This document shows, one piece after another, positions 625 to 20,303 of a DNA stretch of 20,303 nt. Under the pieces are notes generated by a model, which was given only the letters and a program-made list of their open reading frames with translations, was not told where the DNA came from and ran no database searches. The stretch is taken from IMG/VR virus record IMGVR_UViG_3300028388_004914, positions 1-20,303 of that record, one strand, 5' to 3'. Source of the stretch: a virus. Each line of letters begins with the position of its first letter. The stretch's first letter is position 1. Position numbers and translations under genes: made by a program.

Positions 625-627
625 TTC

Positions 628-2396: not shown

Positions 2397-2397
2397 C

Positions 2398-4214: not shown

Positions 4215-4234
4215 ATCTAGTGTAGTATAAGATA

Positions 4235-5260
4235 ATGTATGATATTGTGTACTTTGGCCCACCCACGGACGAATGGTATAATCTTAAAAATAAATATCGC
4301 ACGGCTAAAATAGTCGACACTGTTGAAAAAGCCAAACAAGTTACATTCACCAAAATGTTCTGGTTGGTCTATCCTGATACTTATGTTTGTGATAGTTTTG
4401 ATTTTTCTTACACTGTACCGGACTGGGATCTACAGTACCATCATCTTTTTAAAAACGGAAAATTTTTTGATGGCATAGCGTTAATCAGCAAAAAAAATTT
4501 TCCGAGTAAAAATGAAATAATTTATAGATTTTATATACAGAAAAAAGAAATAGATATTGTTGCAAGTTGTCCAAAGCCATATGATGTTATTTTTATTTCT
4601 TATAACGAACCTAATGCTGATAAAAATTTTGAACTTTTACAAAACAAAATCCCTAGTGTTAAAAGGGTACATGGTATAAAAGGAATTCATAAAGCTCACG
4701 TAGCTGCGGCTGAACTAGCTACTACAGATATGTTTTATGTAGTAGACGGCGATGCTCAAATATACGACGATTTCCATTTTGACTATCAAATCCCCCAATA
4801 CGATATAAATGCAAAAAACACTGTGTATGTTTGGAAAAGCAAGAATCCTGTAAATGGTCTAGTATATGGCTATGGGGGTGTAAAATTACTTCCTAGAAAC
4901 ATGACTATAAATATGGACATTAGCAGCACAGACATGACAACAAGCATCGGATCATTTTTTAAGCCAATGGATGCAACAAGCAATCTTTCTGCATTTGCCA
5001 CAGACGAATTCAGTACCTGGAAGAGTGCTTTCAGAGAATGTGCTAAATTAGCTAGCAAAACAATTCAAGGACAAATAGATGAAGAGACAGAGCAACGCCT
5101 TAAAACTTGGACAACCGTGGGACAAGATCACAACTTTGGTGAATATGCAATTCGAGGTGCTAGGGCTGGTATGCAGTTTGGCATTTCTAATAAGTCTGAT
5201 ATATCATTAATAAATGATTTTGAGTGGTTATATGACAGATTTCAAACAGATTCCGTTTAA
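4235..5260 (+). CDS. GT-A-like glycosyltransferase
   Basis: 341 residues. The central region reads like a GT-A nucleotide-sugar transferase. A strand-rich start (DVIFISYNEPNADKN, about 117-131) leads to a helix and then MFYVVDGDAQ (166-175), where DGDA supplies the metal-binding DxD motif. After this come charged loops and a C-terminal acidic/His element (GQDHNFGEYA). Similar proteins with SYNEPNA and VDGDA motifs occur in T4-like cyanophages. The first 110 residues form a separate domain that I do not recognise. The 20-base gap before the ATG contains no clear ribosome binding site. The gene ends within the next gene (29-base overlap). Likely role: sugar transfer together with the TEKT proteins upstream. 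Confidence 0.6.
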   Translation: MYDIVYFGPPTDEWYNLKNKYRTAKIVDTVEKAKQVTFTKMFWLVYPDTYVCDSFDFSYTVPDWDLQYHHLFKNGKFFDGIALISKKNFPSKNEIIYRFYIQKKEIDIVASCPKPYDVIFISYNEPNADKNFELLQNKIPSVKRVHGIKGIHKAHVAAAELATTDMFYVVDGDAQIYDDFHFDYQIPQYDINAKNTVYVWKSKNPVNGLVYGYGGVKLLPRNMTINMDISSTDMTTSIGSFFKPMDATSNLSAFATDEFSTWKSAFRECAKLASKTIQGQIDEETEQRLKTWTTVGQDHNFGEYAIRGARAGMQFGISNKSDISLINDFEWLYDRFQTDSV

Positions 5261-6131
5261 AGATATTGTAAGATTTGGACAAAAAACTCTTCTAAAGAGC
5301 CATCTTTTCACAGTCTCTTGGATAACCACAAGATATTGTAATTATAACTGCTCATATTGCTGGCCTCATGCTAGATCTAGTGTTGTAGATAAAAAACCAC
5401 TAGAATTGTACCTAAACACTATGGATAGTATCAAGGCACAGGCTCGTGCTAATAATTTTACAGATTTTCACTTTAGCTTTAGCGGCGGTGAACCTACAGC
5501 AAACAAACATTGGTGGAATAAATTCGTTAAATATACTACCACATTGCAACGCAGAAGTATCACAGCAAGTTTTCATGATGAATTTGCCAACGAACAAGAG
5601 TTTGGAGATAAATGCCTTGCACTTATGGAAGGAGGCGTTTATATTACAATAAATCAAGTTATGGTACCTGAAAAGTTTGAAGAGCTGTATCAACGCCTTC
5701 GAAGATTTGCCGATAGGGGAATCAATATTACCCTCAAGCCACAATCTAACCCTACTGCCACAGCAGTAGTTGAAGGCTACACACAGGAACAAATCAACAT
5801 TATGCAAACGGGATTTCCGCAAAAAATCCACGAAAAAGAATTATTAAATGTAGAATTAATAGCCACTGATGGTAAAAAGTATTATATAGATCAAGCCGAG
5901 CGTCTCAATGCATTTGACTTCAATAAATTTAAAGGATGGGAATGTAACGCAGGTTTTCAAAGTTGTGTTGTAAAGAACGATATAGTGTGTCGAAGTTATT
6001 CTTGTCATGACGAACCACTTGGAAACATATATGATGGCTTTGAGTTGTTCAAAACACCTAAGTCCTGTATAACTCATAGTTGTGTAAGCAGTGCAGACAG
6101 TAAAATACCAAAGAAAAATGTGCGTATCTAA
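5232..6131 (+). CDS. Radical SAM protein with C-terminal auxiliary cysteines (1 of 7)
   Basis: I chose the ATG at 5232 (299 residues; GAGTGG a few bases upstream). An in-frame ATG at 5214 would overlap the previous gene further. Cys36-x3-Cys40-x2-Cys43 (CNYNCSYC) binds the radical-generating [4Fe-4S] cluster, and SGGEP (84-88) contacts SAM. The C-terminal 60 residues hold six cysteines (238, 245, 253, 258, 279, 284), in a GN-I-YDGF context like a SPASM or twitch domain, so at least one auxiliary cluster is likely. Enzymes of this layout modify peptides, proteins or small molecules by hydrogen abstraction. It is the first gene of the radical SAM block and overlaps the genes on both sides. The substrate is unknown. 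Confidence 0.85.
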   Translation: MTDFKQIPFKDIVRFGQKTLLKSHLFTVSWITTRYCNYNCSYCWPHARSSVVDKKPLELYLNTMDSIKAQARANNFTDFHFSFSGGEPTANKHWWNKFVKYTTTLQRRSITASFHDEFANEQEFGDKCLALMEGGVYITINQVMVPEKFEELYQRLRRFADRGINITLKPQSNPTATAVVEGYTQEQINIMQTGFPQKIHEKELLNVELIATDGKKYYIDQAERLNAFDFNKFKGWECNAGFQSCVVKNDIVCRSYSCHDEPLGNIYDGFELFKTPKSCITHSCVSSADSKIPKKNVRI

Positions 6132-6744
6132 ACTATTAGTATACAAAGCAGAAAGTTGGTCTGTGAAGAAGGCACAAGAGTTCCATAATAACTCTTTTCC
6201 TGGACATCCCAGTGAAGATTTAAAGTATATTTGGGAATCCCACGGAAATGATTGGTTATTGTATAGAGATTCAGATGCAAAATTGTTTGCAAATAACGGT
6301 GTTATATATAAAGTAAGTACAATGTCACGCAAAGAAGACTGGGAAGCACATCGAGCACTTTTTGATATCACTTCGATACCTATAGAAATACCAATAAAAT
6401 ACGAGGATTTAGGAAAATTTAAATACACGGTTGTTCAAAGGCCCTATAATGTATTAGGAATATCCTTATCAGAAACTGTCGTTAGTGGAAATTTGGATGA
6501 AAATTATTTACGACGTATGGTAGATAATCATAAATTATTATTTAAAGACTTATCAAAATTGGGAAAAGGATATCCAATCCCGCCAAAATGGTGTGATAGT
6601 GACGTTACTGGATTTTGGACTGATTTCAAATACTGGAAATATTCCAAAGAAGAATATGTGGAGTTTTATACGTGCAGTATAAATAAAATCTTAGAAAACT
6701 TTAATTTGAATTTTGATAAGGATGACATAAATTTATGGAACTAG
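6118..6744 (+). CDS. Unknown protein, possibly kinase-like N-lobe
   Basis: I take the ATG at 6118 (208 residues, 14-base overlap with the previous gene). A GTG at 6091 is an alternative that would overlap more. I do not recognise the family. Residues 50-105 run as a series of short strands with Tyr-Lys-Val (Lys65), then an acidic helix with Glu76, then VVQRP (105-109). This is loosely the order of a protein-kinase-like N-lobe (ATP-binding Lys, helix C Glu, hinge). A convincing catalytic HxD or DFG motif is not seen, so the resemblance may be chance. The C-terminal third is rich in aromatic residues (GFWTDFKYWKY). It sits between a radical SAM enzyme and an aminotransferase and has no signal peptide. 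Confidence 0.5.
   Translation: MCVSKLLVYKAESWSVKKAQEFHNNSFPGHPSEDLKYIWESHGNDWLLYRDSDAKLFANNGVIYKVSTMSRKEDWEAHRALFDITSIPIEIPIKYEDLGKFKYTVVQRPYNVLGISLSETVVSGNLDENYLRRMVDNHKLLFKDLSKLGKGYPIPPKWCDSDVTGFWTDFKYWKYSKEEYVEFYTCSINKILENFNLNFDKDDINLWN
6678..6685 (+). promoter_or_regulatory. Possible T4-type late promoter, inside a gene
   Basis: The exact octamer TATAAATA lies on the plus strand near the 3' end of the unknown gene at 6118, about 50 bases before the small gene at 6735. If used, transcription would start near 6691 and serve the small gene and the aminotransferase. In sequence this AT-rich a few chance matches per 20 kb are expected, so position is the only support. Confidence 0.2.
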
Positions 6745-6923
6745 TTGAATATAAAATGTTCAAAGACAATAAACTGGTTTATAGAAATACTTGTCCTGCC
6801 TTATTTTTTATAGGCATAGTTCCTGTGCTAGAAGTTGATTTATATGATTACATTGAGATAAAATATAAGGGTACAATAACAATATACTATGCAGATGGGA
6901 TTGTAAATAAATGGAAGCAATAA
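6735..6923 (+). CDS. Small unknown protein, 62 residues
   Basis: The ATG at 6735 overlaps the preceding stop by 10 bases, and the stop overlaps the start of the aminotransferase gene by 13 bases. This tight spacing argues that it is a real gene despite its size. The protein is rich in Ile, Val and Tyr, with alternating hydrophobic and polar residues (VLEVDLYDYIEIKYKGTITI, about 31-50) that suggest a small all-beta fold. There is one cysteine and no signal peptide. I do not recognise it. It lacks the leader/core look of a RiPP precursor (no Gly-Gly site, no Cys/Ser/Thr-rich end), but its position among modifying enzymes makes a carrier, substrate or recognition subunit possible. Confidence 0.5.
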   Translation: MELVEYKMFKDNKLVYRNTCPALFFIGIVPVLEVDLYDYIEIKYKGTITIYYADGIVNKWKQ

Positions 6924-7693
6924 TAAATTTATCACAAAATGTTTGTTACGATAAGCATTTGAAATTTGAACTAGATTACAATTCTTACGGTAAACACAGT
7001 GTATGCTTGGATATCCTCAAAAAACATTATCACTGTAATAATATTGATATTGGCTACGGAATAAGCGAACTAATATCCAGAATTATGTTTTTTTTCAAGC
7101 AGAATAACCTAAAACTTACAATTTGTAAGAATGCTTGGCCAGGATTTGCAGAAATGCAAAAGTCAATGGACGTATTATCAGGCAACGATGTATATTATCT
7201 AGTTAATCCTAGTGGTATCAATGGAGAACAACTGACAAAAAGCCAGGTGACCGATTTGGCAAAGCAATACAAGTATATTGTTGTGGACGAAGCATATGGA
7301 GATTTTTTTGAAAACTCCGTTATTGATTGTCGAACTAATAACATGATAATTCTAAAAACATTGTCTAAAAGTATCGCTAGTCCAGGTGTCAGGTTTGGGT
7401 GGTGTATTGCACCTACAGAAGTTATTGATACAATTTCAACTATCAGACCACGAAGTTGCACAGTTGGCGGAATACAAGATCAATTAGAAGCAATGTTAGC
7501 AGAGATACCTAATCATGTAAAACGCATGATTGAAACTAGAAACTTTTTAGAAAGTAACTATAATTGCACAAAAAGCTACGGAAATTATGTTTTGTTCAAC
7601 ACCCCTAACAAATATACAGAGAAATTTATCTGCAAACAGATAGGAAATCATTACAGAATGGCTCTGGTTGACATGGATACATTAAATGAGTGA
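6911..7693 (+). CDS. HisC-like PLP aminotransferase, shortened
   Basis: The 260-residue protein has the core of a fold-type I class I/II aminotransferase near histidinol-phosphate aminotransferase. Features are NPSG (99-102), VVDEAYG (124-130, Asp126 pairing with the PLP nitrogen), TLSKS (150-154, Lys153 forming the Schiff base) and GVRFGW (159-164, Arg161 binding phosphate). The family is usually about 350 residues. Here the N-terminal arm is short, and the protein stops after a segment like that before the last strand-helix unit of the small domain, so the usual substrate-carboxylate arginine region is reduced. All core catalytic residues are present. It would move an amino group to or from an alpha-keto acid or keto sugar. 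It overlaps both neighbours, the next radical SAM gene by 8 bases. Confidence 0.8.
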   Translation: MEAIINLSQNVCYDKHLKFELDYNSYGKHSVCLDILKKHYHCNNIDIGYGISELISRIMFFFKQNNLKLTICKNAWPGFAEMQKSMDVLSGNDVYYLVNPSGINGEQLTKSQVTDLAKQYKYIVVDEAYGDFFENSVIDCRTNNMIILKTLSKSIASPGVRFGWCIAPTEVIDTISTIRPRSCTVGGIQDQLEAMLAEIPNHVKRMIETRNFLESNYNCTKSYGNYVLFNTPNKYTEKFICKQIGNHYRMALVDMDTLNE

Positions 7694-8492
7694 TTTCTAC
7701 ATCTTAAGACAGCAACAAAGCCAAGGGGCAACAGATCTATTGTCAACTTTAAGAACAGTTGAGATTAATGCCGTTGACATATGCAATAGATCCTGCAAGT
7801 TTTGTCCACAGAGTCAGGGGTACAAGCCCAAGAAAGGTTTTTTTGATATAGAACTGATAGAAAAAATAGCAAATGATCTGCAAGCAATAGAATATAATGG
7901 CCGGGTAAGTTTTACAGGTTTTGGTGAACCCTTGCTTTACAAAAATTTGTATGAAGCCATAGAAGTGCTGAATAAAGTTATTAAGAATATATCTTGGATC
8001 GAGGTAGTTACGAATGCTGATTATTTAAACAAACAAGTAGCTAAAAATTTATACGATAGTGGTTGTACTAATGTTACTGTGAGCATGTACGATGAAGATA
8101 TTTCTGATACCATAGCAAAATATTTTCTGGACACAAATATTAATTTGAATTTCAAATATCAATACAAAGGTTTTATAGTAGTAAACAGAAATGAAATAGT
8201 AGCCAAAGAAACAGACCTAGACATAAACAGACCATGTTATCTTCCTTTTTACAAAATGATGATTGATATTGATGGACAGGTCTTAATCTGTGCAAACGAC
8301 TGGGCAAGGTCTGGTATAGTAGGAAATGTACACAGAGATACTATTAAAGATATTTGGTTAGGAGAATCTATTAATTTTTATAGAAAACAACTGGCAAGAG
8401 GAAAACGTCAAAATTGTATGCCTTGTAAATTCTGTGACATAAACGGAACATTACATGGAGAAGAGTCTTTTAAACTTTGGAGAAATTACTAA
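7686..8492 (+). CDS. Radical SAM-SPASM protein (2 of 7)
   Basis: 268 residues with the full layout of a radical SAM-SPASM enzyme. Cys33-x3-Cys37-x2-Cys40 (CNRSCKFC) binds the catalytic cluster, TGFGEP (77-82) contacts SAM, and VVTN (107-110) follows. A compact SPASM domain has Cys184, then MIDIDGQVLIC (192-202), VGNVHRDTIKDIW and a final Cys244-x2-Cys247-x2-Cys250. This is the textbook pattern of anaerobic-sulfatase-maturase and peptide-modifying relatives, and it is the cleanest SPASM match in the window. Many such enzymes act on ribosomal peptides or proteins, others on sugars and small molecules. Its stop overlaps the start of the QueC-like gene (TAATG), so the two are likely translated together and may act in sequence. 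Confidence 0.9.
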   Translation: MSDFYILRQQQSQGATDLLSTLRTVEINAVDICNRSCKFCPQSQGYKPKKGFFDIELIEKIANDLQAIEYNGRVSFTGFGEPLLYKNLYEAIEVLNKVIKNISWIEVVTNADYLNKQVAKNLYDSGCTNVTVSMYDEDISDTIAKYFLDTNINLNFKYQYKGFIVVNRNEIVAKETDLDINRPCYLPFYKMMIDIDGQVLICANDWARSGIVGNVHRDTIKDIWLGESINFYRKQLARGKRQNCMPCKFCDINGTLHGEESFKLWRNY

Positions 8493-9043
8493 TGCAAATT
8501 ATTTGCGGCCCAAATTGGGACAGGCGTGTTGTAAATATCGATCATAAGGAAGATGCTGGCATTTTGATGAGCGGCGGAATAGATAGTTGGGTTTTATATA
8601 ATCTAATACAAGGACCTGTGAAAATATTCAACTATAAAAGGCACAATGGCATTGATTCTATACATCAAGTTGAATTATTAACTGGAAGAAGAGATATAAT
8701 AGAGATTATACAGGACAAGCCAAATAAAAAATTTATTGATTATGCGGCCGACTATATAAAAGAATATTGTTCAAGTCTATATATTGGAATAAATCATATT
8801 CCTCCGATAGATATTTTTCCAGAATTTGCAGACGATTACCCAATACGACCCTGGAGATCATTAGATAGTAATTTGTTGATGCCATTTTTACATGTGCAAA
8901 AATATCATATCATAGACATTGCTAGACAAAAGAAGATTGACTTATCTCTTACACAAAGTTGTCTAGTAAATGCTAACGGACATTGTGGAAAGTGTTGGCA
9001 GTGTTTAGAAAGAAAATGGGGATTTGATCAATTAGATGACTAA
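8492..9043 (+). CDS. QueC-like PP-loop ATPase with zinc site
   Basis: I place the start at the ATG at 8492, which overlaps the previous stop as TAATG (183 residues); a TTG at 8477 is the alternative. The PP-loop SGGIDS (27-32) marks an N-type ATP pyrophosphatase that adenylates a carboxylate. Near the C-terminus TQSC (Cys157) and HCGKCWQC (Cys165, 168, 171) match the zinc-binding tetrad of QueC, which makes 7-cyano-7-deazaguanine; the following ERKWGF also fits. QueC is usually about 220-230 residues, so this one is short. No other deazaguanine gene (FolE, QueD, TGT/DpdA) is visible here, so it may work on another carboxylate, making an amide or nitrile. QueC-like proteins also occur in anti-phage systems such as Qat and type IV CBASS. 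Confidence 0.75.
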   Translation: MQIICGPNWDRRVVNIDHKEDAGILMSGGIDSWVLYNLIQGPVKIFNYKRHNGIDSIHQVELLTGRRDIIEIIQDKPNKKFIDYAADYIKEYCSSLYIGINHIPPIDIFPEFADDYPIRPWRSLDSNLLMPFLHVQKYHIIDIARQKKIDLSLTQSCLVNANGHCGKCWQCLERKWGFDQLDD

Positions 9044-10073
9044 AACACTTTGCGCATATCCGTGGCACGGAATGGCTATTCGGCCAAATGGCACACAATT
9101 ACCATGCTGTATATTTCAAGGCATACCGGACTGGAGCGATATACGAAATAAACAGTTACGCGGAGAAAGACTAGAAGGGTGTGCTTTGTGTTACAACAAC
9201 GAAAGTCATGGTATTAAAAGTTTGAGACAAAATAGTTTTAATCGAATGCCTACACCTTCGACATCTCACGCAGGTGATTTAATTTTTTTGGAACTTGCCT
9301 TTAGTAATTTGTGTGATACTGCATGTATGCATTGTAGTTCAGATTTTAGTACAAGATGGGGAAATAGTAAAGTAGCGCATAATATCAATATAGATTCGTT
9401 AGAGTTGTCAAAGGTAAAATACCTAAAAGTTATAGGGGGTGAACCTATGTTAGAACAAGATAAGTTTAATGAATGCCTAGATAGAATGAACATTGCTGAT
9501 TTATCCATGCAAATTTGTACAAACGGCCGATCTTTTCCCAATAGTAGATTGTTGAAGCATATAGAAATGTCAAAAGCTACGTTAATTGTAGTCAGCATGG
9601 ACGGAATTGAGGGAGTAAATGACTGGTTTCGTTGGCCTAGTAAATGGATTCAATTACAAGAACAATTCTCCAAATACGACAAATTGCATAGAGAAAATAT
9701 TTTTCTGCATTTTCATTGTTGCATCAATGTATACAACATTTTTTATCTTAAAGAAACCGTTGATTATGTGTTAACACGATGGCCTAATTGGAAAATAGAG
9801 TGGGATTGGGTAGATCAACCTTCATGGCAAAGTATTAGTGTACTTCCAGAAGATATAAAACAACAACTGAAGATCGAATTACTAGCACATTCTAAAGAAT
9901 ACAAAGATTTATCAAGATTATGTGATGTAGATCCTTTTGCATCTAGTGCCAGCAGATTAGATACTGTATTGTCTACCAACTGGCAAGAATGTGTAAGATA
10001 TACAAAAAAGTTTGCACAAAAACGAAACCTAGACCTAACTGCCCTCATACCTAAATTTGCTAAATTATTATAA
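9036..10073 (+). CDS. Radical SAM protein, twitch type with N-terminal cysteine domain (3 of 7)
   Basis: 345 residues. The N-terminal 60 residues hold a SPASM-like half domain (CAYPWHGMAIRPNGTQLPCC, Cys6, 24, 25; then Cys49 and Cys52). Next is the radical SAM core: Cys93-x3-Cys97-x2-Cys100 (CDTACMHC), GGEP (134-137) and CTNG. In this family, common in T4-like cyanophages and annotated as twitch domain-containing radical SAM proteins, the auxiliary-cluster domain comes first instead of last. The next gene encodes a longer relative with the same order, so the pair looks like an ancient tandem duplication. The reaction is unknown. It overlaps the QueC-like gene by 8 bases and is followed by a 14-base gap. 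Confidence 0.85.
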   Translation: MTKTLCAYPWHGMAIRPNGTQLPCCIFQGIPDWSDIRNKQLRGERLEGCALCYNNESHGIKSLRQNSFNRMPTPSTSHAGDLIFLELAFSNLCDTACMHCSSDFSTRWGNSKVAHNINIDSLELSKVKYLKVIGGEPMLEQDKFNECLDRMNIADLSMQICTNGRSFPNSRLLKHIEMSKATLIVVSMDGIEGVNDWFRWPSKWIQLQEQFSKYDKLHRENIFLHFHCCINVYNIFYLKETVDYVLTRWPNWKIEWDWVDQPSWQSISVLPEDIKQQLKIELLAHSKEYKDLSRLCDVDPFASSASRLDTVLSTNWQECVRYTKKFAQKRNLDLTALIPKFAKLL

Positions 10074-10087
10074 CGAAAGAGTATAAA

Positions 10088-11476
10088 ATGGAAGATAGAG
10101 CTAAAAATTTTATAAAACAAATGCAACAAAAAACAGGCACTGATAAATTCTGTGTGTTGCCGTGGATACATGTAGCTACGAGACCAAATGGCGATGCAAG
10201 ATTGTGTTGCGGCTCAAATGCAAGTCAAGCTACCAACGGCATTCTAGATGCTGGTAATATAAAAAAAGAAAACGGCGAACCTGCAAATTTTGGCAAAGAA
10301 AATTTATATTCTGCAATAAACAACGAATATATGCGTAATGTACGAACAACCATGCTTGCTGGCGATATTCCCTTAAGTTGTACCAAGTGCTTTGAAGAGG
10401 AAGCAAATGGAATGATTAGTAAAAGGCTGTGGGAAAGTTTTTGGTGGCAAGAAGAAGAGGGCACTAGTTTTGAAGATTTAATTTCTGAAACATCAGATGA
10501 TGGCACTATACCCAATAAAGTAGAGTACCTAGATCTACGTTTAGGGCATACGTGTAATCTAAAATGTGTTATGTGTACTCCAAATGACAGTTCTCGTTGG
10601 ACGCAAGATTACGATAAATTAATTGCCACAACTTCCGATCCACAAATACATAAACAGGTCAACTTTGACGCATCTAAATTTAATAATAAATGGTATGAAC
10701 GGCCAGAATTATGGAATGAAATATTCCAACAGATTCCTAATATAAAACAACTATATTTTGCAGGCGGCGAGCCCTTGATGATCAAAGAGCATAGAAAGTT
10801 ATTGGAAGAGGTTATACGCCAAGGCTATGCAAATCAAATTACCCTTAGGTATAATTCAAACGGAACCTTGGTCGAAGATTGGATACTTGAACTTTGGTCT
10901 CATTTTAAACAAGTCAAATATGGATTTAGTATAGATGATATAGAAGATCGGAACCACTATATTAGATACCCTACCAAATGGCAAACTATTGTAGATACAT
11001 TACATAAATTAGATAAAACACCTGATAACATAGTGGTAAGTATTGCATGTGCTGTTCAGGTATTTAACATATTACATGTCACAGAATTTGCCAAATGGGT
11101 GATATCCCAAAACTTCCAAAAAATTAACAAAAGTGTTTATCAAGGGGTTGAAACAGGTGGGGGTATTATCAGTATGCATCTGCTATATATTCCTACGTTT
11201 TTGAGTGCTAGGATTCTACCACAGGAAGACAAAGCTAAACTTCGTGATAAGTTTTTAGAATTTAAAGACTGGTTGTGGAACAATTATCGTCAAGACGACG
11301 ACTTCTGGAAGTATAATCCAAACGGATGGAAGCGTTGGGAGGGTTTGTTAAGTTTTGTTGAAGCAGAAGATCACAGCAACTTGCTGACAACATTCAAACA
11401 ATATGTAGACAGCTTAGATCGTATCAGAGGTCTAAATGCTAAAGAAATTTTTCCTGAGCTAGAGCATTTATTATGA
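10088..11476 (+). CDS. Radical SAM protein, twitch type, long paralogue (4 of 7)
   Basis: At 462 residues this is the largest radical SAM protein here. The N-terminal domain has FCVLPWIHVATRPNGDARLC (21-40), with Cys22, 40 and 41, then after about 55 residues Cys98-x2-Cys101. The radical SAM core follows: Cys156-x3-Cys160-x2-Cys163 (CNLKCVMC) and AGGEP (225-229). The C-terminal 150 residues are rich in Trp and charged residues and unlike the shorter paralogue. A 14-base gap precedes the ATG, with AAAGAG as the likely ribosome binding site. This is the only gene of the radical SAM block that does not overlap its upstream neighbour. It shares ATGA with the next gene. Its function is unknown; the N-terminal clusters may bind or position a peptide or nucleotide-linked substrate. 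Confidence 0.85.
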   Translation: MEDRAKNFIKQMQQKTGTDKFCVLPWIHVATRPNGDARLCCGSNASQATNGILDAGNIKKENGEPANFGKENLYSAINNEYMRNVRTTMLAGDIPLSCTKCFEEEANGMISKRLWESFWWQEEEGTSFEDLISETSDDGTIPNKVEYLDLRLGHTCNLKCVMCTPNDSSRWTQDYDKLIATTSDPQIHKQVNFDASKFNNKWYERPELWNEIFQQIPNIKQLYFAGGEPLMIKEHRKLLEEVIRQGYANQITLRYNSNGTLVEDWILELWSHFKQVKYGFSIDDIEDRNHYIRYPTKWQTIVDTLHKLDKTPDNIVVSIACAVQVFNILHVTEFAKWVISQNFQKINKSVYQGVETGGGIISMHLLYIPTFLSARILPQEDKAKLRDKFLEFKDWLWNNYRQDDDFWKYNPNGWKRWEGLLSFVEAEDHSNLLTTFKQYVDSLDRIRGLNAKEIFPELEHLL

Positions 11477-12432
11477 TATCAAAAATCGTCACAGACTATA
11501 AAGATAATCTAGATGTTGAGCTAATGCTCAGTAATGTCTGTAATTATAAATGTCATTATTGCTTTCCTGGATTCAATGAAGGCAGTTTGAAATGGCCCAG
11601 TGATAACTATGATTTGCTAGTTAGTAATGTCAAACATTTGTTTGAATACTATAAAACCAATCTCGGTAAGAAAAAATTTCATGTAAAAATTATGGGAGGT
11701 GAACCTACTGTATGGTCTGACCTTCCAAAGTTTGTTTATGATTTAAAACAGGCAGAGGAATGCTATGTTAGAATGTCTACCAATGCTTCAAGAACATTGC
11801 GATATTGGAAGGAAAAATCAAATCTTTTTGATCAGATTATAATTTCTGTACACAATGAATTTTCTGATATAGATCATATTATCGATGTAGCAAATCATAT
11901 ATATGAAACTAAGAAGTCAAATTTATATGTTACTGTGTTAATGGATCCTTATAATTGGGAAATATCTGTAAGAAATTTTGAATTTTTACTGAATAATAGC
12001 TGCAATTGGCACCTCGCAGTAGCACCGGTTAATTTTGAAGGTAGCACAAGATACAATTATAAACAGTTAGAATACCTTAATAATGCGCCAAAGAGAACTG
12101 CACTGCAACCTATAGATTTTTACACAGGATTATCTGCTCCTTTGTTTTTAGATGAAGATAATAATACTGTTGACACAGATCAGCATAAAATTATTACTAA
12201 TAAAAAAAATTGTTTCAAAGGATTCAAGTGTAATATAGGCTTAGATAAAATTTTTGTATACGGAGATGGAGAAATCAAAGGTGCGTGTGGTCAAAAGTTT
12301 TTCAACAATGTTAATTTATATTCAACAAATTTTATAAAACAACTTGAATCTAATATATTGCAGCCCAGTATTTGCACACAAGACTTTTGTTCTTGCAGTT
12401 CTGAAGTTATACTAACAAAGAGCATTGTATGA
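11473..12432 (+). CDS. Radical SAM protein with C-terminal auxiliary cysteines (5 of 7)
   Basis: 319 residues. Cys23-x3-Cys27-x2-Cys30 (CNYKCHYC) binds the catalytic cluster and MGGEPT (74-79) contacts SAM. The C-terminal third contains Cys247, Cys253, Cys272, Cys301, Cys306 and Cys308, with a KIFVYGDGEIKGAC stretch resembling the central strand pair of SPASM/twitch domains; one auxiliary cluster is likely. Overall it is the nearest relative in the window of the protein at 5232 (same CNYxCxYC and GGEPT forms, similar length and cysteine spacing), although the remaining sequence is well diverged. Translation is probably coupled on both sides, with ATGA overlaps to the previous and next genes. 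Confidence 0.85.
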   Translation: MISKIVTDYKDNLDVELMLSNVCNYKCHYCFPGFNEGSLKWPSDNYDLLVSNVKHLFEYYKTNLGKKKFHVKIMGGEPTVWSDLPKFVYDLKQAEECYVRMSTNASRTLRYWKEKSNLFDQIIISVHNEFSDIDHIIDVANHIYETKKSNLYVTVLMDPYNWEISVRNFEFLLNNSCNWHLAVAPVNFEGSTRYNYKQLEYLNNAPKRTALQPIDFYTGLSAPLFLDEDNNTVDTDQHKIITNKKNCFKGFKCNIGLDKIFVYGDGEIKGACGQKFFNNVNLYSTNFIKQLESNILQPSICTQDFCSCSSEVILTKSIV

Positions 12433-13031
12433 AATTAGATATAGAAGATATAATGTTTTGGATGGATGCTATTCGCAACAGCGATGACAGATATCGTACA
12501 CTAGAAAGTTTTTGGAAAGGACAAATCAAAAGCAAAGTCTGGCTCATTGAAAATCTAGAACATCATATAGATACCGAACCCAAGAATGTTATTATACACG
12601 GAGGATGGAATGGAGTTCTTGCCAGTCTTATTTTTAATAGTGAGATTAATGCTATACAAATTACAAGTTTAGACGTAGATCCGGCATGCGAGAAAATTGC
12701 CCTTACAATGAACAAAAGACAAGAAATTGAAGGAAGATTTACTGCTGTTACTGCTGACATGTGCAATTATAAGTATAGTGCAGACATTGTGATCAATACA
12801 AGTTGTGAACATATCACACAAGAACAATACGAACAATGGTTAAGAAATGTTCCTGACAATGCTATCGTTGTATTGCAAAGCAATGACTATTTCCAGTTAA
12901 ATGAACATGTTCGTTGTGTAAATAATAACACTGAGTTTTTAGAACAGTCTAAAATTAAACCGTTACAAGTATATGAAATGAGACTACCTAAGTATACTCG
13001 TTTTATGATTATTGGAAAAAAGAATGTATAA
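12429..13031 (+). CDS. Class I SAM-dependent methyltransferase, marine-phage type
   Basis: The 200-residue protein has a variant SAM-binding loop HGGWNGVLAS (57-66), an acidic end of strand 2 in LDVDP (81-85), ADM (109-111) contacting the adenine, and VINTSCEH (121-128) in the place of the usual motif IV. The HGGW, NTSCEH and YTRFMIIG (189-196) signatures are those of a family seen in many T4-like cyanophages and annotated as methyltransferases. The target is unknown; DNA N-methyltransferase motifs (DPPY and similar) are absent. It lies between two radical SAM genes with a 4-base overlap upstream and an 8-base overlap downstream, so methylation is probably one step of the same pathway. Confidence 0.75.
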   Translation: MKLDIEDIMFWMDAIRNSDDRYRTLESFWKGQIKSKVWLIENLEHHIDTEPKNVIIHGGWNGVLASLIFNSEINAIQITSLDVDPACEKIALTMNKRQEIEGRFTAVTADMCNYKYSADIVINTSCEHITQEQYEQWLRNVPDNAIVVLQSNDYFQLNEHVRCVNNNTEFLEQSKIKPLQVYEMRLPKYTRFMIIGKKNV

Positions 13032-14160
13032 ATTTATTCATGATACTATAAGCCTATGTAATGAATGTTATAGACACATTCCTGCCATTGTATACGAGCA
13101 TGAAGAAACAATCAAAATGCGTAAAGAGTGTCCTGTACATGGCAAGCAAAAAAGTATTGTAGAAATAGATCCTGAGTTCTATTATGGCTTAAATCATACT
13201 AGAGATGTGCCTCAATTCAATTATGTTTTTTTCGAGGCAACTGATCGGTGTCAGTTGAATTGTCCTCATTGTTATCATTTACCTGACAATAAGATAACGG
13301 ATAGGCCTATACCTACATTGATACAACAAGTACAACAATTTCCTAAAGATAGTAAAATAATGATTGCAGGAGCAGAACCGACATTAAGGCCTGATTTTGT
13401 AATGTTATGCTCAGACATCAATCAGTTAGATTATGGTGGGTTTAGTGTGCTTACAAATGGTTTGAAATTTGCTTCTGAGGAATTTACAAAACAATGTAAA
13501 AATGCAGGATTGAATCATGTATCATTTGGACTAAACCATCCTGATTATCAAGGTAGGGCTGTACATGATAAACAACTACGAGCAATTGAAGTTTTGAAAC
13601 AACAAGAAATTTACATAGGTTACGTAGGATATACCATAAAGTCATTAGAAGAATTGCCTTATATATTAGAAGAAATCGAAAGACTACATGTCCCTATTAA
13701 TAATTCAAATAAAGATATGCCTACTACAGGAATAAGCCATTATAGAATTAGATGTGGCAGTTTTATAGGTAGGAGTAGTGATAATAAAAGAAGCTTCTTA
13801 AGCGATACATTTAAGCGTATTACAGAATTATTAGGTGATGTTGAAATAGGAAGTTTAGGAGACGATAATCCTTATCACATAATGATTAAAAAAGGTGATA
13901 TTAAAATTAGGGTAATTCAATGGCCTGATAAAACAAATATAGATATGGAAGAGTTAGCTTCTGGACCATGGAGTAATTTCTACAATGGACCTATCACTAA
14001 TTTTGTACATCAAACCATTATGCGTGATGCATTTGTAAACAGAAGTCTTCCTATTTTAGATACTGTACCAGAAAAATATCAATATAAATCAGTAGGAGAA
14101 CATATCTACTGGAAAAATAATTGGAAAGGTCCTATTGAATGTTCAACTTTAAAGATTTAA
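13024..14160 (+). CDS. Radical SAM protein with N-terminal zinc-knuckle, Tes/MJ0619-like (6 of 7)
   Basis: I start at the ATG at 13024 (378 residues), preceded by GGAAAAAAGA; a TTG at 13012 is less likely. Residues 12-39 form a small metal-binding domain: Cys12-x2-Cys15, then Cys36-x2-His39 in KECPVHG. This cap followed by a radical SAM core is the layout of the family that includes tetraether lipid synthase and the MJ0619 methanopterin methylase. The core has Cys76-x3-Cys80-x2-Cys83 (CQLNCPHC), but the SAM-contact motif reads AGAEPT (115-120), not GGEP. Relatives often act on unactivated carbons, joining lipid chains or transferring methyl groups. The length is shorter than Tes (about 500 residues). 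The substrate here is unknown. Confidence 0.8.
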   Translation: MYKFIHDTISLCNECYRHIPAIVYEHEETIKMRKECPVHGKQKSIVEIDPEFYYGLNHTRDVPQFNYVFFEATDRCQLNCPHCYHLPDNKITDRPIPTLIQQVQQFPKDSKIMIAGAEPTLRPDFVMLCSDINQLDYGGFSVLTNGLKFASEEFTKQCKNAGLNHVSFGLNHPDYQGRAVHDKQLRAIEVLKQQEIYIGYVGYTIKSLEELPYILEEIERLHVPINNSNKDMPTTGISHYRIRCGSFIGRSSDNKRSFLSDTFKRITELLGDVEIGSLGDDNPYHIMIKKGDIKIRVIQWPDKTNIDMEELASGPWSNFYNGPITNFVHQTIMRDAFVNRSLPILDTVPEKYQYKSVGEHIYWKNNWKGPIECSTLKI

Positions 14161-15221
14161 AATCTGTTCATGTAGAACTTAGTACTCGTTGTCAGGCAAG
14201 TTGTCCTATGTGCGCAAGGAATAATCATGGAGGTTTACCTAATCCTAATCTAAAAATCGCCGATATGAGCTTAGATACGTTTAAGAAAATAATTGCACCC
14301 GAAGTTTTAGAAACTGTAAATCATATTTGCTTCTGTGGTAACTTTGGTGATCCGATAATGAATAATGACTTAATCAATATCTGTCGCTACCTTAAACAAA
14401 CCTCAGATATAATAAATGTTCATATTCATACTAATGGCGGAGCAAGATCAGCAGGGTGGTGGCAAGATCTCAAAGAAGCATTGCCAGAAAAACACTGCAT
14501 ATTTTTTGCTATTGACGGATTAGAAGATACCCATCATATATATCGTATTGGGACTACCTATGAAAATGTAATTACAAATGCTAAAACATTTATAGATATA
14601 GGAGGGAAAGCAGAGTGGGTATTCATTAAGTTCGAGCATAACCAACATCAAGCACAAGAAGCAGAACGCAGAAGTAAAGAGCTAGGCTTTGCTCGATTTA
14701 CTATGAAAAACACTAATCGTTTTATCGGCGAAAATAGATTTAGTGTTGTAGATAAAGACGGTCAACATCAGTATAACTTGAAACCGCCATCCGATAACAA
14801 AGTTGCAGAAATAACTAAGCAAGATATTGACCACTTTATGCAAACATACAAATCCTGTAATATTAAGTGTCAAGCAAAAAAAAACAAAGAAATTTATATA
14901 GATGTTCATGGTAGAATTTCTCCCTGTTGTTTCATAGCTCATGCTCCGTACAATACTCCTGATAGTAGAACTATTGTTAAGGAACAAAAAGCACAAATAA
15001 AAAAACAATATTATGATCTTGTTGATGATTTAGGGGGAATCGATAATTTAGATTTGAATCAAAAATCCATAAAAGAAGTTTTTCGCAATCACAAGTGGCA
15101 TACTGTATGGAAAAAATACTGGGGCGAAGAAAAACTTTTAATGTGTGCAAAGACATGCGGGGATTTTAAGAATTCAAAACCCAAAGAACAAATAATCTCT
15201 AATATAATTCACAAAGAGTAA
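14139..15221 (+). CDS. Radical SAM-SPASM protein (7 of 7)
   Basis: 360 residues, last gene of the plus-strand run. Cys18-x3-Cys22-x2-Cys25 (CQASCPMC) binds the catalytic cluster, and NFGDP (68-72) takes the place of GGEP, as is usual in one branch of SPASM proteins. HTNGG (97-101) follows. The C-terminal SPASM-like domain holds Cys240, Cys244, Cys263, Cys264, Cys336 and Cys340, with IYIDVHGRISPCC (252-264) as the central hairpin. The RCQASCPMCARNNHGG start is familiar from a radical SAM family in T4-like cyanophages. The ATG overlaps the previous gene by 22 bases with GGAAAGG upstream. Its stop overlaps by 13 bases the end of the convergent gene on the other strand. Confidence 0.85.
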   Translation: MFNFKDLKSVHVELSTRCQASCPMCARNNHGGLPNPNLKIADMSLDTFKKIIAPEVLETVNHICFCGNFGDPIMNNDLINICRYLKQTSDIINVHIHTNGGARSAGWWQDLKEALPEKHCIFFAIDGLEDTHHIYRIGTTYENVITNAKTFIDIGGKAEWVFIKFEHNQHQAQEAERRSKELGFARFTMKNTNRFIGENRFSVVDKDGQHQYNLKPPSDNKVAEITKQDIDHFMQTYKSCNIKCQAKKNKEIYIDVHGRISPCCFIAHAPYNTPDSRTIVKEQKAQIKKQYYDLVDDLGGIDNLDLNQKSIKEVFRNHKWHTVWKKYWGEEKLLMCAKTCGDFKNSKPKEQIISNIIHKE

Positions 15222-15784: not shown

Positions 15785-16363
15785 TTATGCCTCACTTATT
15801 ACAATATGTACCCTATCCTGTCTGCCTCCATTATACACAAAATGTTTCCTGCGAGTGTCTACTTTGTAAACATAACCGTCGGCGGGGATATGATAACATT
15901 TGGCAGAATATTCATTATGATCTATAACTTCTCCGAAAAATGCTGAAGGATGAGTTATTAAGGCAATATGATATCTTTGTTCTAAATCTTGATGCACTGT
16001 AAGTCCTGTTTTTTCTTGGAGTCGCATATATCTTACACGACCAATTTTGAATCCTATTTTTTTTGCAAGATTTTTTATAAATTTTATAGTATACGGTGCA
16101 TTTTCGATATTAAATTCAGTAAAATCTTTTTCTTTAGCATCGAATTGTTGTAGCGAAGAATTATATAAACTTCCGGTATTGTCAAGCCACTGATCAGAGG
16201 CTCCTGGTCGATAATTAAGGCCTATTTGATTACTAGATAATGTATTGCCTTCGCTGTCATATTTTTTTGGCCAGTTCTGGGCCTCAATTATATTAATGTA
16301 TTCTGTCAATGCCAAATTGAGGTCAATATTATTTTCTGTCTTTGATATAAAATTCATATCCAT
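15785..16363 (-). CDS. Asp/Asn beta-hydroxylase-like 2OG oxygenase
   Basis: 192 residues; the C-terminal 80 carry the double-stranded beta-helix signature of the aspartyl/asparaginyl beta-hydroxylase family. It has His124-x-Asp126 in LTVHQDLEQRYHIAL, where the QRYHIAL stretch (129-135) is typical. YKVDTRRKHFVYNGG (166-180) gives distal His174 and Asn178, and Arg184 in DRVHIVIS would bind 2-oxoglutarate. It should hydroxylate an Asp or Asn side chain or a related group. It overlaps the GNAT-like gene upstream by 10 bases, and the following gene begins immediately after its stop. Because the minus run appears to be expressed late with the structural gene, a virion protein is a reasonable but untested substrate. 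Confidence 0.8.
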   Translation of the reverse strand: MDMNFISKTENNIDLNLALTEYINIIEAQNWPKKYDSEGNTLSSNQIGLNYRPGASDQWLDNTGSLYNSSLQQFDAKEKDFTEFNIENAPYTIKFIKNLAKKIGFKIGRVRYMRLQEKTGLTVHQDLEQRYHIALITHPSAFFGEVIDHNEYSAKCYHIPADGYVYKVDTRRKHFVYNGGRQDRVHIVISEA

Positions 16364-16911
16364 CTACCATATTGTTCCAGCTCTCTATAGAATAATTCAG
16401 CATCTAACTTCCATAATGTTTGCAAGGCTCCTCTATATTTAATTTGCCCGCAATTTTTTACTAGTCCTGTTTTTTCCAGTGCAGGAAAGTAAATTTTGTG
16501 AACCAAGCGTTGTGAACCGCTTTCTAGTTCGTTCGAAGTAACATATAAATTTTTATCATTTCCTGCCCACTCTATGCAAGTAGGTATTAAAAATTGTGCA
16601 GTAGGGTTTTGGTGTTGTTGGATTGTTTTCTTTATGTTTCGTAAGCCATGGTTAGGAAGCTCATCTGTAAATACACAAGTCCTACATGCAATGCGATATG
16701 AGTCTTTATCTAAAAAGTCAAATGTATGTGCCGCAACACATCCCACAGGTTTATTTTTGTAATATAAAATCCAAGTTTTACTTTTCCTTTCGTTTCTAAA
16801 GCAATCGTGTATCCAAAACTGGCTTGTGTTATTTTCAAATCCTTTCTGCTTTGCTTTTGCATAAAATTCTTCAAGGTTTAAATTTGCTGAAAAAGGCACT
16901 ATCTTATACAT
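16354..16911 (-). CDS. GNAT-like acyltransferase (probable)
   Basis: 185 residues. The N-terminal half has the strand pattern of a GNAT acetyltransferase: KTWILYYKNKPVGCVAAHTF (44-63) looks like strands 2-4 around the beta-bulge, followed by CRTCVFTDEL (76-85). The expected R/Q-x-x-G-x-G/A acetyl-CoA loop is not clear; NHGLRNIKKTI (87-97) occupies its place. It could therefore be a divergent member that binds CoA poorly, or one that uses another donor. AAAGGA lies about 8 bases before the ATG. The gene overlaps its upstream neighbour by 8 bases and its downstream neighbour by 10. Together with the flanking oxygenases it suggests decoration of a protein or small molecule. Confidence 0.5.
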   Translation of the reverse strand: MYKIVPFSANLNLEEFYAKAKQKGFENNTSQFWIHDCFRNERKSKTWILYYKNKPVGCVAAHTFDFLDKDSYRIACRTCVFTDELPNHGLRNIKKTIQQHQNPTAQFLIPTCIEWAGNDKNLYVTSNELESGSQRLVHKIYFPALEKTGLVKNCGQIKYRGALQTLWKLDAELFYRELEQYGRWI

Positions 16912-17614
16912 TTAGCAATCCTTTTACTAAATTTTTTGCAGTAGGAAGTGTAGATAAAAATAATTGATATATGTCATCTTCAAATGCTTCAGCATCATGT
17001 ACAATACTAGTGTCAATGAGATATAGTCTGCCTTTTTCTACGTCTTGTATTTTTTCCATGCTTTCAGTTGTTGTATTGTAATAGCTGACATGGAGATTAT
17101 TCGGATCATTTGTGGCCCATAAGCGTAACCATGGCGCCGGAATACAATTATCGATGTGCGGAAAAAATTTTGCACCATTGCCCCATTTTAAAATATTAGA
17201 TCTGCACCAGTGTCCGTCGAAAATCCTTAAGGGTTTGATACTTGGAAGATTTATCAGTTCAGTAGGCACGACACAATCTGATTCAATAATTTTGTTCTTT
17301 GGATGTAAGGCATTATACTCATATAAAGAACCGTTTGTAGGGTCTTGTGTGCGGCTTAAGACACCATCTAAATTGACTAGTGCAATTCCTGATCTTGAAA
17401 GATGCGTATGATTATTGCCCCATTGCTGAAAAAAAGTTTGATAAGATTGTAATTCATTCTGTAGACTATCCATATCCACTATGATAGACGTGGGGGTTAA
17501 AAAACTTTTATGCATGTGTTTATAATCACTATAAGATACAAAGTTGTTGATATTCGCTAACTCTTTCTCAAACACTTTCATTGTGTCGCTGATTATTTTT
17601 TTAGGTTTCAGCAT
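16904..17614 (-). CDS. Asp/Asn-hydroxylase-like cupin oxygenase, large form
   Basis: 236 residues. The C-terminal half has GNGAKFFPHIDNCIPAPWLR (145-164), giving His153-x-Asp155 and Arg164, then a strand pair, and GRLYLIDTSIVHDAEAF (195-211) with distal His206. This is the layout of Asp/Asn-hydroxylase-like 2OG-Fe(II) oxygenases known from T4-like cyanophages. The usual late Arg that binds 2-oxoglutarate is not obvious; the matching strand reads IYQLFLS, so 2OG may be held by another residue, perhaps Arg164. The N-terminal 110 residues include RSGIALVNLDG (74-84), probably part of the same family. It overlaps the upstream gene by 14 bases. Confidence 0.7.
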   Translation of the reverse strand: MLKPKKIISDTMKVFEKELANINNFVSYSDYKHMHKSFLTPTSIIVDMDSLQNELQSYQTFFQQWGNNHTHLSRSGIALVNLDGVLSRTQDPTNGSLYEYNALHPKNKIIESDCVVPTELINLPSIKPLRIFDGHWCRSNILKWGNGAKFFPHIDNCIPAPWLRLWATNDPNNLHVSYYNTTTESMEKIQDVEKGRLYLIDTSIVHDAEAFEDDIYQLFLSTLPTAKNLVKGLLNV

Positions 17615-18065
17615 ATTTTATTCTCTTTGATAAGTTATTGTATGATTCTTCAAAAATTGATATTTTGAAAAGAATCCTTTCTTCGTTGTTGTTTACCACA
17701 GAGTGAGGAACTTGGGTGTTCAGCAATGCGGCTGTGTATAGATATTCTACGTCTCCGAACAATACTGGTGCAGGATTATCATTCAAAACAAAATTTAATG
17801 CACATTCTGTGTTGTGATCTACGTGTTCGGGTAAAAATGCATGTGGAGCAAGCCAATAAAATCTAGGTTTACCTTTAATATCAAAATCAGTCATAATTTG
17901 TTCTATGTATTTGCTATTGTGTTTACAAATAAGCCAGTCATTGAATTGTTTTCCAGGATACCTAGGGTCTTTGCCGTAAGGCACTGCATTTGTCTTTGCT
18001 TGTTTTGCCTCCATTAGTAGTTGATATTTGTTCAACGGATAATTTATGTATGTAATTGGATTCAT
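17601..18065 (-). CDS. Short cupin/2OG-Fe(II) oxygenase-like protein
   Basis: The 154-residue protein looks like a minimal double-stranded beta-helix oxygenase. It has His81-x-Asp83 in LPEHVDHNTECALNF (78-92), distal His121 in VPHSVVNN, and Arg130 in ERILFKISIFEE. The triad spacing and final Arg fit Asp/Asn-hydroxylase-like phage proteins. The start is well supported: TAATG overlap with the upstream gene and GAGGA about 6 bases before the ATG. It is the third oxygenase of the minus run, and the three are so divergent that they are likely to have different targets or act in succession. The substrate is unknown. Confidence 0.7.
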   Translation of the reverse strand: MNPITYINYPLNKYQLLMEAKQAKTNAVPYGKDPRYPGKQFNDWLICKHNSKYIEQIMTDFDIKGKPRFYWLAPHAFLPEHVDHNTECALNFVLNDNPAPVLFGDVEYLYTAALLNTQVPHSVVNNNEERILFKISIFEESYNNLSKRIKYAET

Positions 18066-19207
18066 TACAAGTCCTCAAGATTTTTTATGCCGTCGAATAT
18101 ATCGGATAAATTTTGATAATAATCTACGTTTTTTAGCGGCGAAATAAGTCTTAGCAATCCTGGTCTATTTTTTTGTATCAGTTGTTTGGACACATATGCG
18201 TCCAAAAGTTGCTTTCTGGCAGTCTCCCAAGTAAGATTAAGGGATAAATTTAACAATTCTATATTGTCAAAAGGAGCAAAATATAATGTGTTGCCTAAAT
18301 GCCAGTGCTGATAATCTGTTTTAAATTTGTTCAAAATATATGATTTCAATTGATTTTCGTTTTCAAAGCACATATCGCTGTATTCCTTATATTCTTCTAT
18401 ACACTGTGGCAACAAATAATGAGTGCTTTGGTATAGCTGAGGATTTTTAGTACATACAGTAACTAAATCCTCATCGTGATATTTTAACATTAAATAAGCT
18501 TGCAAAAAGTCTCGGAGTAAAGTTTCATCGCCATGTGCACCTGTAAGTAAAATCGAAGGCTCCTTCCAGTGTTGTATAGTAGAATATGCCCAGTAATTTT
18601 TGCGTAATCTGTTTCTATGATTACAAAGGAATCGGTCCATTTCTGCGTGTTCGCCTGTAACTAAGTCATAGGGTATGTCATGTTTTAGGATATAGGAAAT
18701 CAGCAATATGGTATCTACGCCACCTGTAGGATAAATTTTTATAGGTGTAGGACTATTGAAATCTTTTATGTAATTACTAATTGCGTCGTCAAGTAGATTT
18801 ATTATGTTTTTGTCGTCGGTATTTAGATTTGTATAATAAAGATCTTTTGTCGAACTTTCTGTAATATTTGTGTTTGAAATAAAAATTGGACATGTCACAT
18901 TTGTGCCGGCAGTGTATGTATTTGAAATAGTCATATCTAATAGATATATAGGAAATTTTTGTTTTTTTCCGCCGATTACTTCTATCTTATCTGAGTCAAG
19001 ACTAATTATACAAAACGTACCGTTGGCATTTCTATAGTTGTCGATGTCTTGCTTACTTTTGATTTGTAAGACACCTTTTTGTGTGATACCTTTGTATAAA
19101 AAATTCTCACAGTATGTCCATCCGTTATCAAAATGAATAAAGTAATCATTATGATTGATATAATTAGGGAAGGTATAATCAAACTTTTTTGAAATGTGGA
19201 AAAACAT
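18065..19207 (-). CDS. Asparagine-synthetase-like PP-loop protein lacking the N-terminal Cys
   Basis: 380 residues. The C-terminal domain has the PP-loop YPTGGVDT (159-166), a variant of SGGxDS, and LTGAHGDETL (221-230), the G-x-x-x-D/E element of class B asparagine synthetases. Both point to ATP-dependent activation of a carboxylate. The first 110 residues keep the outline of a glutamine amidotransferase II domain (GTFCIISLDSDKIEVIGGKK, 63-82, in place of GxFxxxxxD...RDRxG), but there is no Cys2: the protein starts MFFH. Loss of that Cys is what separates beta-lactam synthetase from asparagine synthetase, so this protein may use free ammonia or another amine, or close a ring. The start has AGGAGA at 19212-19217 and a late promoter just upstream. 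Confidence 0.7.
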   Translation of the reverse strand: MFFHISKKFDYTFPNYINHNDYFIHFDNGWTYCENFLYKGITQKGVLQIKSKQDIDNYRNANGTFCIISLDSDKIEVIGGKKQKFPIYLLDMTISNTYTAGTNVTCPIFISNTNITESSTKDLYYTNLNTDDKNIINLLDDAISNYIKDFNSPTPIKIYPTGGVDTILLISYILKHDIPYDLVTGEHAEMDRFLCNHRNRLRKNYWAYSTIQHWKEPSILLTGAHGDETLLRDFLQAYLMLKYHDEDLVTVCTKNPQLYQSTHYLLPQCIEEYKEYSDMCFENENQLKSYILNKFKTDYQHWHLGNTLYFAPFDNIELLNLSLNLTWETARKQLLDAYVSKQLIQKNRPGLLRLISPLKNVDYYQNLSDIFDGIKNLEDL

Positions 19208-19211
19208 ATGA

Positions 19212-19217
19212 TCTCCT
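19212..19217 (-). promoter_or_regulatory. Ribosome binding site of the Asn-synthetase-like gene
   Basis: On the minus strand AGGAGA stands four bases before the ATG at 19207. It is the strongest Shine-Dalgarno sequence in the window. Its first three bases form the end of the 3' arm of the hairpin at 19215-19242, so access may depend on where transcription starts. Confidence 0.7.
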
Positions 19218-19242
19218 GTATCAAATTATTTATAGACACAGG
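19215..19242 (-). promoter_or_regulatory. RNA hairpin that could mask the ribosome binding site
   Basis: On the minus strand CCTGTGTC (19242 to 19235) pairs with GATACAGG (19222 to 19215) through eight base pairs, one of them a G-U pair in RNA, around a 12-base loop. The 3' arm includes part of the ribosome binding site, and the loop contains the late promoter. No T run follows, so it does not look like a terminator. Confidence 0.55.
19227..19234 (-). promoter_or_regulatory. T4-type late promoter
   Basis: The minus strand reads TATAAATA, the exact T4 late promoter -10 octamer, in the 57-base gap between the structural gene and the Asn-synthetase-like gene. With T4 spacing transcription would begin near 19221, giving a leader of about 14 bases that keeps the ribosome binding site. 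It would drive the minus-strand run from 19207 to 15209 late in infection. Confidence 0.65.
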
Positions 19243-19264
19243 TTGGAGAAAATGCTATTTCCGA

Positions 19265-20303
19265 TTAGTGCAAATCAACCCAAACGCCGTTAGCATAACC
19301 TTTGAATTTATCAGTATCGCTATCGTATATAATCATTCCGTCTGTGCCTGTAGGTTCGGCACCCGTTGCGTAGGATCCCACAATCAATGCAGGCACAGTT
19401 GTGATTCCGTCCTCGTCAATTCTTAAGAAGTTTCCATTATTTGCCGTTAGGTTCTCGGCAGAGCCTATACCTATCTGTACAGGAATAAATGCGTCTCCTT
19501 CGTTTGGAGTTGCCGCTGCCGATATCACCATAGTTCCTCCTGGAGACATATCTGTGCCCATCCATCCACTGGCTGAAAATGAAGTTAACACATCCCCTGC
19601 CTGTACTTTTGTCTTGTTCTCTGCTGTGCCTCTAAATGACTCCCCTCTTATAACAGGAAATATACCTGATCCGGTATTATTGGAGGAACTTAGAATAAGT
19701 GCTTCGGAATTAAAAATCATATCTGCGGTTGATGTTACAGTTGCTCCATCGATGGTTATGTCACTGTTCCTGAAAATATTATTAACACTATCAACTAAAA
19801 CAGTAGAATCATCTCCAAATACGGATCCTTTTACATCGCCAGTATGAAATCCTGATAGATTACCAATGACATCTGCTGTTAATATAGCATCCGTGCCGTC
19901 TGTGCCGTGATCTAAAACTACAATGCCATTTGCGGATTTGACATCACCTGTAAAAGCACCAAGAAATTCGCCTGTGTCGCTATTGAATGCCTGTGTGCTA
20001 TCAGAAGATATCAGGTCAGCTGAGATTGCATTAGCCTGTATTGTTCCAAAGAATGTGCCGCCATTTGCATACACATTTTGCCATCTTAGACTGGTACTTC
20101 CTAGATCGTGCGAGGCATTTTGATTTGGAATTAGACTGCTTGAAATAGATCCGCCAACGATTACATTATCTTCAGCACCGTCGCCTAAGTTAATGTTACC
20201 TGTAGCAGTAATTGTGCCATTGATATTAATATTACCGGTACCAACAATGTTGTTTGTGTTTAAATCTAAGTCTCCGCCAAGTTCCGGTGATAATTCGTCT
20301 ACA
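19265..20303 (-). CDS. Tail-fibre-like structural protein, C-terminal part (5' end outside window)
   Basis: The frame is open through the right edge, so the visible 345 residues are the C-terminal part of a longer protein; the GTG at 20074 is internal. The visible start VDELSPELGGDLDLN, followed by Gly-Asn-Ile repeats (NININGTITATGNINLGDG), the element HDLGSTSLRWQNVYANG and the ending GMIIYDSDTDKFKGYANGVW are all characteristic of long repetitive fibre or baseplate-associated structural proteins of marine T4-like phages. The sequence is rich in Gly, Ser, Thr, Asn and Asp and has no cysteine or signal peptide, as expected for a beta-rich fibre. Its local GC is visibly higher than that of the enzyme genes. 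The gap after its stop carries the late promoter and hairpin for the next gene. Confidence 0.85.
   Translation of the reverse strand, partial: VDELSPELGGDLDLNTNNIVGTGNININGTITATGNINLGDGAEDNVIVGGSISSSLIPNQNASHDLGSTSLRWQNVYANGGTFFGTIQANAISADLISSDSTQAFNSDTGEFLGAFTGDVKSANGIVVLDHGTDGTDAILTADVIGNLSGFHTGDVKGSVFGDDSTVLVDSVNNIFRNSDITIDGATVTSTADMIFNSEALILSSSNNTGSGIFPVIRGESFRGTAENKTKVQAGDVLTSFSASGWMGTDMSPGGTMVISAAATPNEGDAFIPVQIGIGSAENLTANNGNFLRIDEDGITTVPALIVGSYATGAEPTGTDGMIIYDSDTDKFKGYANGVWVDLH

Follow-up and report, generated by a model that had tools for sequence, protein, structure and literature searches.

A hairpin-embedded late promoter that probably gates translation of an accessory gene cassette in an uncultured T4-like phage

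A putative gp55-type late promoter, TATAAATA, is placed in the loop of a predicted hairpin in front of a 380-aa ORF of an uncultured T4-like virus of bacteria, and the 3′ side of this hairpin carries the Shine-Dalgarno sequence (SD) and AUG of that ORF. The DNA analysed, here called the window, is the whole 20,303-base IMG/VR record. The hairpin is likely to be a late-promoter translational gate of the T4 e and I-TevI type; the switch itself is already known from phage T4, and the window presents another case. The assignment is based on the sequence, predicted folding, statistics, and the status of the box and the architecture in relatives, and from these we infer the +1 position, the repression, and the existence and timing of a read-through RNA. 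In the proposed mechanism, RNA reading through from the upstream structural gene would fold, hide the SD and AUG and be translated poorly, whereas RNA begun near 19221, with a predicted 14-nt leader lacking the 5′ arms, would expose the ribosome binding site (RBS) and be translated. The 380-aa gene and the genes coupled to it would thereby depend on their own late promoter for expression.

RBS-masking late-promoter hairpins are established for two T4 genes, e and I-TevI, and the list extends to soc and 49 (PMC3014915); similar arrangements are found at I-TevII, segB and mobE (PMC2988022). In T4 e, as in the window, TATAAATA lies in the upstream part of the RBS-masking helix; the long early RNA of e is translated poorly and its late RNA is translated (PMC3014915). 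Unlike in T4 e, the upstream gene of the window is of a late structural type and the putatively gated genes form an accessory enzyme cassette. T4 I-TevI, I-TevII and segB and Aeh1 mobE share with the window both the placement of a late promoter within an RBS-hiding hairpin and the location of the accessory gene inside a different transcription unit (PMC2988022); unlike that of the window, these gates control homing endonucleases, and I-TevI also represses its own promoter. Marine T4-like cyanophages resemble the group of the window in having the NATAAATA late box and a gp55 homologue (PMC2984593), and no RBS-masking hairpin at cyanophage NATAAATA promoters was found in the literature searched.

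Leader and cassette on the minus strand

The features of the leader are, in order of transcription:

19265–20303, minus strand: upstream structural gene, MALQIRRG-type, tail-fibre-like, cut by the contig end (relatives L002–L005)
19252–19256, minus strand: outer 5′ arm, pairing with the AUG region 19207–19203 in the minimum-energy fold
19245–19249, minus strand: anti-SD segment TCTCC, pairing with GGAGA 19216–19212 in the minimum-energy fold
19235–19242, minus strand: 5′ arm described by the first-pass annotation, CCTGTGTC, upstream of +1 and missing from the predicted late RNA
19227–19234, minus strand: late promoter box TATAAATA, hairpin loop, its promoter status taken from relatives
19221, minus strand: predicted +1 of the late RNA, a position given by T4 spacing
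19215–19222, minus strand: 3′ arm GATACAGG, overlapping the SD, from sequence and fold
19212–19217, minus strand: SD, AGGAGA, from the sequence

The structural gene ends with TAA at 19267–19265 and the ATG of the 380-aa ORF is at 19207–19205, both on the minus strand. The 57-nt gap between the two holds CCTGTGTC-TATAAATAATTT-GATACAGGAGATCAT ahead of the ATG, with CCTGTGTC-TATAAATAATTT-GATACAGG covering 19242–19215. The frequency of TATAAATA in the 20,303-nt window is ordinary (4 observed, 4.6 expected); the box alone is not unusual, and what is unusual is its position 27 nt 5′ of the ATG together with the pairing. A transcription terminator was sought between the structural gene and the 380-aa ORF and none was found, by which the hairpin was ruled out as a terminator at this gap.

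The cassette comprises six minus-strand ORFs from the ATG at 19207, adjoining or overlapping by up to 14 nt:

18065–19207, minus strand: 380-aa ORF behind the hairpin, possibly PP-loop or Asn-synthase-like by eye, without family match
17601–18065, minus strand: 154-aa ORF, hydroxylase-like by eye only
16904–17614, minus strand: 236-aa oxygenase-like ORF, 43% identical to the gene directly behind the structural gene in L002
16354–16911, minus strand: 185-aa ORF with a weak GNAT-like match below the cut-off
15785–16363, minus strand: Asp/Asn beta-hydroxylase (PF05118), 45% identical to one in L002
15209–15784, minus strand: 191-aa ORF, the final one in the cassette

Because the ORFs adjoin or overlap, the whole cassette, beyond the 380-aa gene, would probably be held back through translational coupling. 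The hydroxylases named in the first-pass annotation were recovered in part, at 15785–16363 by the PF05118 match, the 154-aa ORF retaining its resemblance by eye only, and the ligase is no more than putative, as Pfam and PDB searches with the 380-aa protein gave no match; AlphaFold returned no usable fold for it (pLDDT 34). Positions 1–15221 of the window hold a convergent plus-strand run facing the cassette, with genes that by eye resemble those for glycosyltransferases, radical-SAM enzymes and methyltransferases.

Predicted fold and opening of the ribosome binding site

An eight-pair stem with TATAAATA in its loop, as described in the first-pass annotation, was present at 19242–19215 (minus strand), where CCTGTGTC (19242–19235) pairs with GATACAGG (19222–19215) including one G-U pair at 19237/19220. 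Two registers compete for the GG of the SD, this one among them, and the minimum-energy fold is larger, with 16 pairs in three runs (19240–19235/19222–19217, 19249–19245/19216–19212 and 19256–19252/19207–19203). AGGAGA was partly in the 3′ arm as claimed, and the masking was wider than claimed, the minimum-energy fold covering both AGGAGA and the AUG with predicted probabilities of being unpaired of 0.05 (SD) and 0.02 (AUG).

The arrangement was scored as the free-energy cost of opening the RBS (−13 to +3) in upstream-started RNA versus late RNA. The late RNA was taken to start on the sixth base 3′ of the box, which is the T4 spacing; the T4 late box spans −13 to −6 (PMC2988020). The start near 19221 proposed earlier agrees with this spacing, as to position only. 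The predicted opening cost was 14.8 kcal/mol in the read-through RNA versus 4.1 kcal/mol in RNA from +1 at 19221, as expected from the earlier claim of a folded read-through and an open late leader, and the SD and AUG were masked only in the upstream-started RNA. The late-RNA cost stayed at 4.1 kcal/mol for any +1 in 19222–19218. The cost in upstream-started RNA was 11.8 kcal/mol with 20 nt of upstream context, 14.6–16.7 with 30–100 nt and 11.0–11.5 with 200–400 nt, and at this last length the gate effect was smaller (11 versus 5 kcal/mol).

When only the upstream part was shuffled, a cost of at least 14.8 kcal/mol was reached in 15 of 9000 shuffles (mean 6.4, sd 1.7), which corrected for about 24 genes gives about 0.04. 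When the upstream parts of 255 other natural late leaders were swapped in, none reached 14.8. Fold energy by itself was less striking (z −2.2, 10 of 200 shuffles).

In the T4 positive control, the opening costs in long and late RNA (kcal/mol) were 16.3/1.6 for e, 13.3/0.4 for I-TevII and 14.4/2.9 for I-TevI. Genes e, I-TevII, I-TevI, 26 and 51 were near the top of the T4 ranking (p up to 0.04), segB followed with p 0.09, and 18, 34, 22, alt, 9 and 36 scored at chance with the same script. The sensitivity of the score is limited, since soc and 49 were not picked out (p 0.2). The parallel with T4 drawn in the first-pass annotation is accordingly upheld for e by literature and score, and for soc by the literature.

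The box and the architecture in related phages

The window is a fragmentary contig of 20 kb, and gp55 was sought in relatives. Homologues were found in 7 of the 15 related contigs searched (G001, G008–G010, G012, G015 and G017). G001 shares the structural gene with the window and encodes proteins homologous to two of the cassette enzymes, at 43% and 45% identity; two others of the seven, 212 and 270 kb long, carry the second junction type. A gp45 search with phrog_223 gave no match anywhere and was uninformative. In the structural-gene relatives from IMG/VR, 257 of 359 distinct NATAAATA sites (72%) were located 20–61 nt upstream of an SD-preceded ATG, versus 3–10% of the sites of ten permuted control motifs, in accordance with the late promoter proposed for the window, and NATAAATA was rare inside genes. 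Without two bait gene families, 79 of 181 sites (44%) preceded a gene. The first box base among the 257 sites was G in 149, A in 47, C in 35 and T in 26, the T of the window thus being a minority variant (26/257), and L110 has T where its relatives have G at the same box position. The structural gene upstream carries its own [GC]ATAAATA promoter in relatives. A scan with TATAAATA (1 in 79.5 kb) had pointed to no late promoter in relatives, a reading overturned by NATAAATA; the scan misled because the group favours G or C at the start of the box, which it avoids elsewhere. A gp55-type late promoter in the phage group is well supported by these sequence comparisons.

The RBS-masking hairpin is absent from most late promoters of the group and present in four settings. 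In three late-promoter families with 15–16 leaders each, the hairpin score was at chance, and the hairpin as a general companion of late promoters was rejected on these well-sampled families. The 96-aa MSRPKP gene has homologues in PA5oct, Phosso and Atu_ph07 and lies between replication-type genes (RNase H, QueE) on its upstream side and structural genes downstream. Its leader pattern GATAAATA-TATGCGTA..AAGGA..TACGCATATG was aligned in 52 leaders with 94% of cells paired, most of the 5′ arm lying upstream of +1 and the AUG ending the 3′ arm. Double changes from G-C to A-U, with G-U intermediates, were counted 12 times at one pair of the stem, and the variable pair 12/42 was G-C in 32, A-U in 12, G-U in 8 and A-C in none; none of 500 shuffles scored as high as the alignment. 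At this border a gate that stops early read-through is plausible.

The MSRPKP gate with covariation was observed in more than 50 phage contigs (L104–L181, e.g. L104:9964–10003), and no description of this late-promoter hairpin was found in the literature searched. In the cultured jumbo phages PA5oct, Phosso, Atu_ph07 and SCTP-2, GATAAATA or AATAAATA stands before the MSRPKP homologue (boxes at L183:5966, L184:1956, L185:1962 and L186:1938), and in Atu_ph07 the box itself is within a 14-pair stem (p 0.09).

At the junction behind the MALQIRRG gene, the leaders of an Asp/Asn beta-hydroxylase (PF05118) in L194, L195 and L197–L199 have a stem in which both sides have changed at 4 of 9 pairs, with 98% of cells paired. 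A 1051-aa gene at the same junction is preceded by CCCGATGC-cGATAAATAca-GTATCGGGG; its promoter, like that of the window, occupies the loop, and the leader variants show G-U/A-U changes. Four of its five distinct leaders opened at 13–16 versus 1–3 kcal/mol (highest 16.3/2.0) and the fifth at 7.5 versus 2.3 kcal/mol (p 0.19). The structural gene of close relatives has GATAAATA in an RBS-masking stem (L027, 16.1/3.8; also L036 and L041). Desaturase genes at similar junctions had the promoter and a hairpin no better than chance, so a gate at every co-directional junction gene was rejected and gating is gene-specific.

Tandem NATAAATA boxes with arms CTAATAACA/TGTTATCAG were observed in the structural-gene leaders of L052, L069, L085 and L097. 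At position 15398 of L017 (contig G006; the same as G005:87207, minus strand), a 305-aa capsid-like gene is preceded by the arms TCCTCCA/TGGAGGA with CATAAATA in the loop between them (opening 9.1 versus 3.3, p 0.04); this contig has 48–50% GC and gp55 was not detected in it.

The compensating changes that the first-pass annotation had proposed to look for in related phages were seen in the analogous MSRPKP and hydroxylase leaders. For the window leader itself and the 380-aa gene, searches found no relatives, including a DNA pattern scan for the leader with R-Y covariation allowed and tblastn of the 380-aa and structural proteins against named phages.

Alternative readings and significance

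That the promoter is real and the hairpin a chance pairing with no regulatory effect is improbable. Most late promoters of the group lack such a hairpin, no relatives of the window leader are at hand to show conservation, and the spot was chosen by a reader out of 20 kb; against this stand the shuffles and the swaps, still at about 0.04 after the correction for genes, the three paired segments that cover both SD and AUG, and the same architecture conserved at the same junction in relatives. It is very unlikely that the inverted repeat serves as a DNA operator over the late promoter, or as an RNA processing or stability element, rather than as a ribosome mask. I-TevI acting on its own promoter gives a precedent for an operator overlapping a late promoter (PMC2988022), and an inverted repeat by itself does not separate DNA from RNA function, but the G-U pairs without A-C at pair 12/42 of the analogous MSRPKP leaders form an asymmetry that a transcribed RNA would be expected to show and a DNA palindrome would not, and the arms extend to the SD or AUG with no terminator present.

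A variant of the gate explanation, with which it can hold together, stands at only slightly below an even chance: the gate would be real and not temporal, both RNAs being late and the hairpin setting the level of the cassette. With a [GC]ATAAATA promoter in front of the structural gene in relatives, transcripts reading through from this gene would themselves be late, and the hairpin may then serve to separate expression of the cassette from the structural transcript. The holding back of the cassette until late infection, as put forward in the first-pass annotation, would apply only if early or middle RNA enters from further upstream, which it may do, and the MSRPKP gate is found at a border of replication-type and structural genes where timing makes sense.

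With the hairpin read as a translational gate, the MALQIRRG junction could be tentatively viewed, with some doubt, as a cargo slot of aquatic T4-superfamily phages, the cargo often having a hairpin-embedded late promoter that arose several times independently and insulates accessory enzymes from the structural transcript. The gate would extend a regulatory device known from a few genes of the T4 group to uncultured aquatic phages; within the group, covariation of other leaders shows the device to be conserved. It also offers a testable case of RNA structure insulating accessory enzyme genes from neighbouring late operons.
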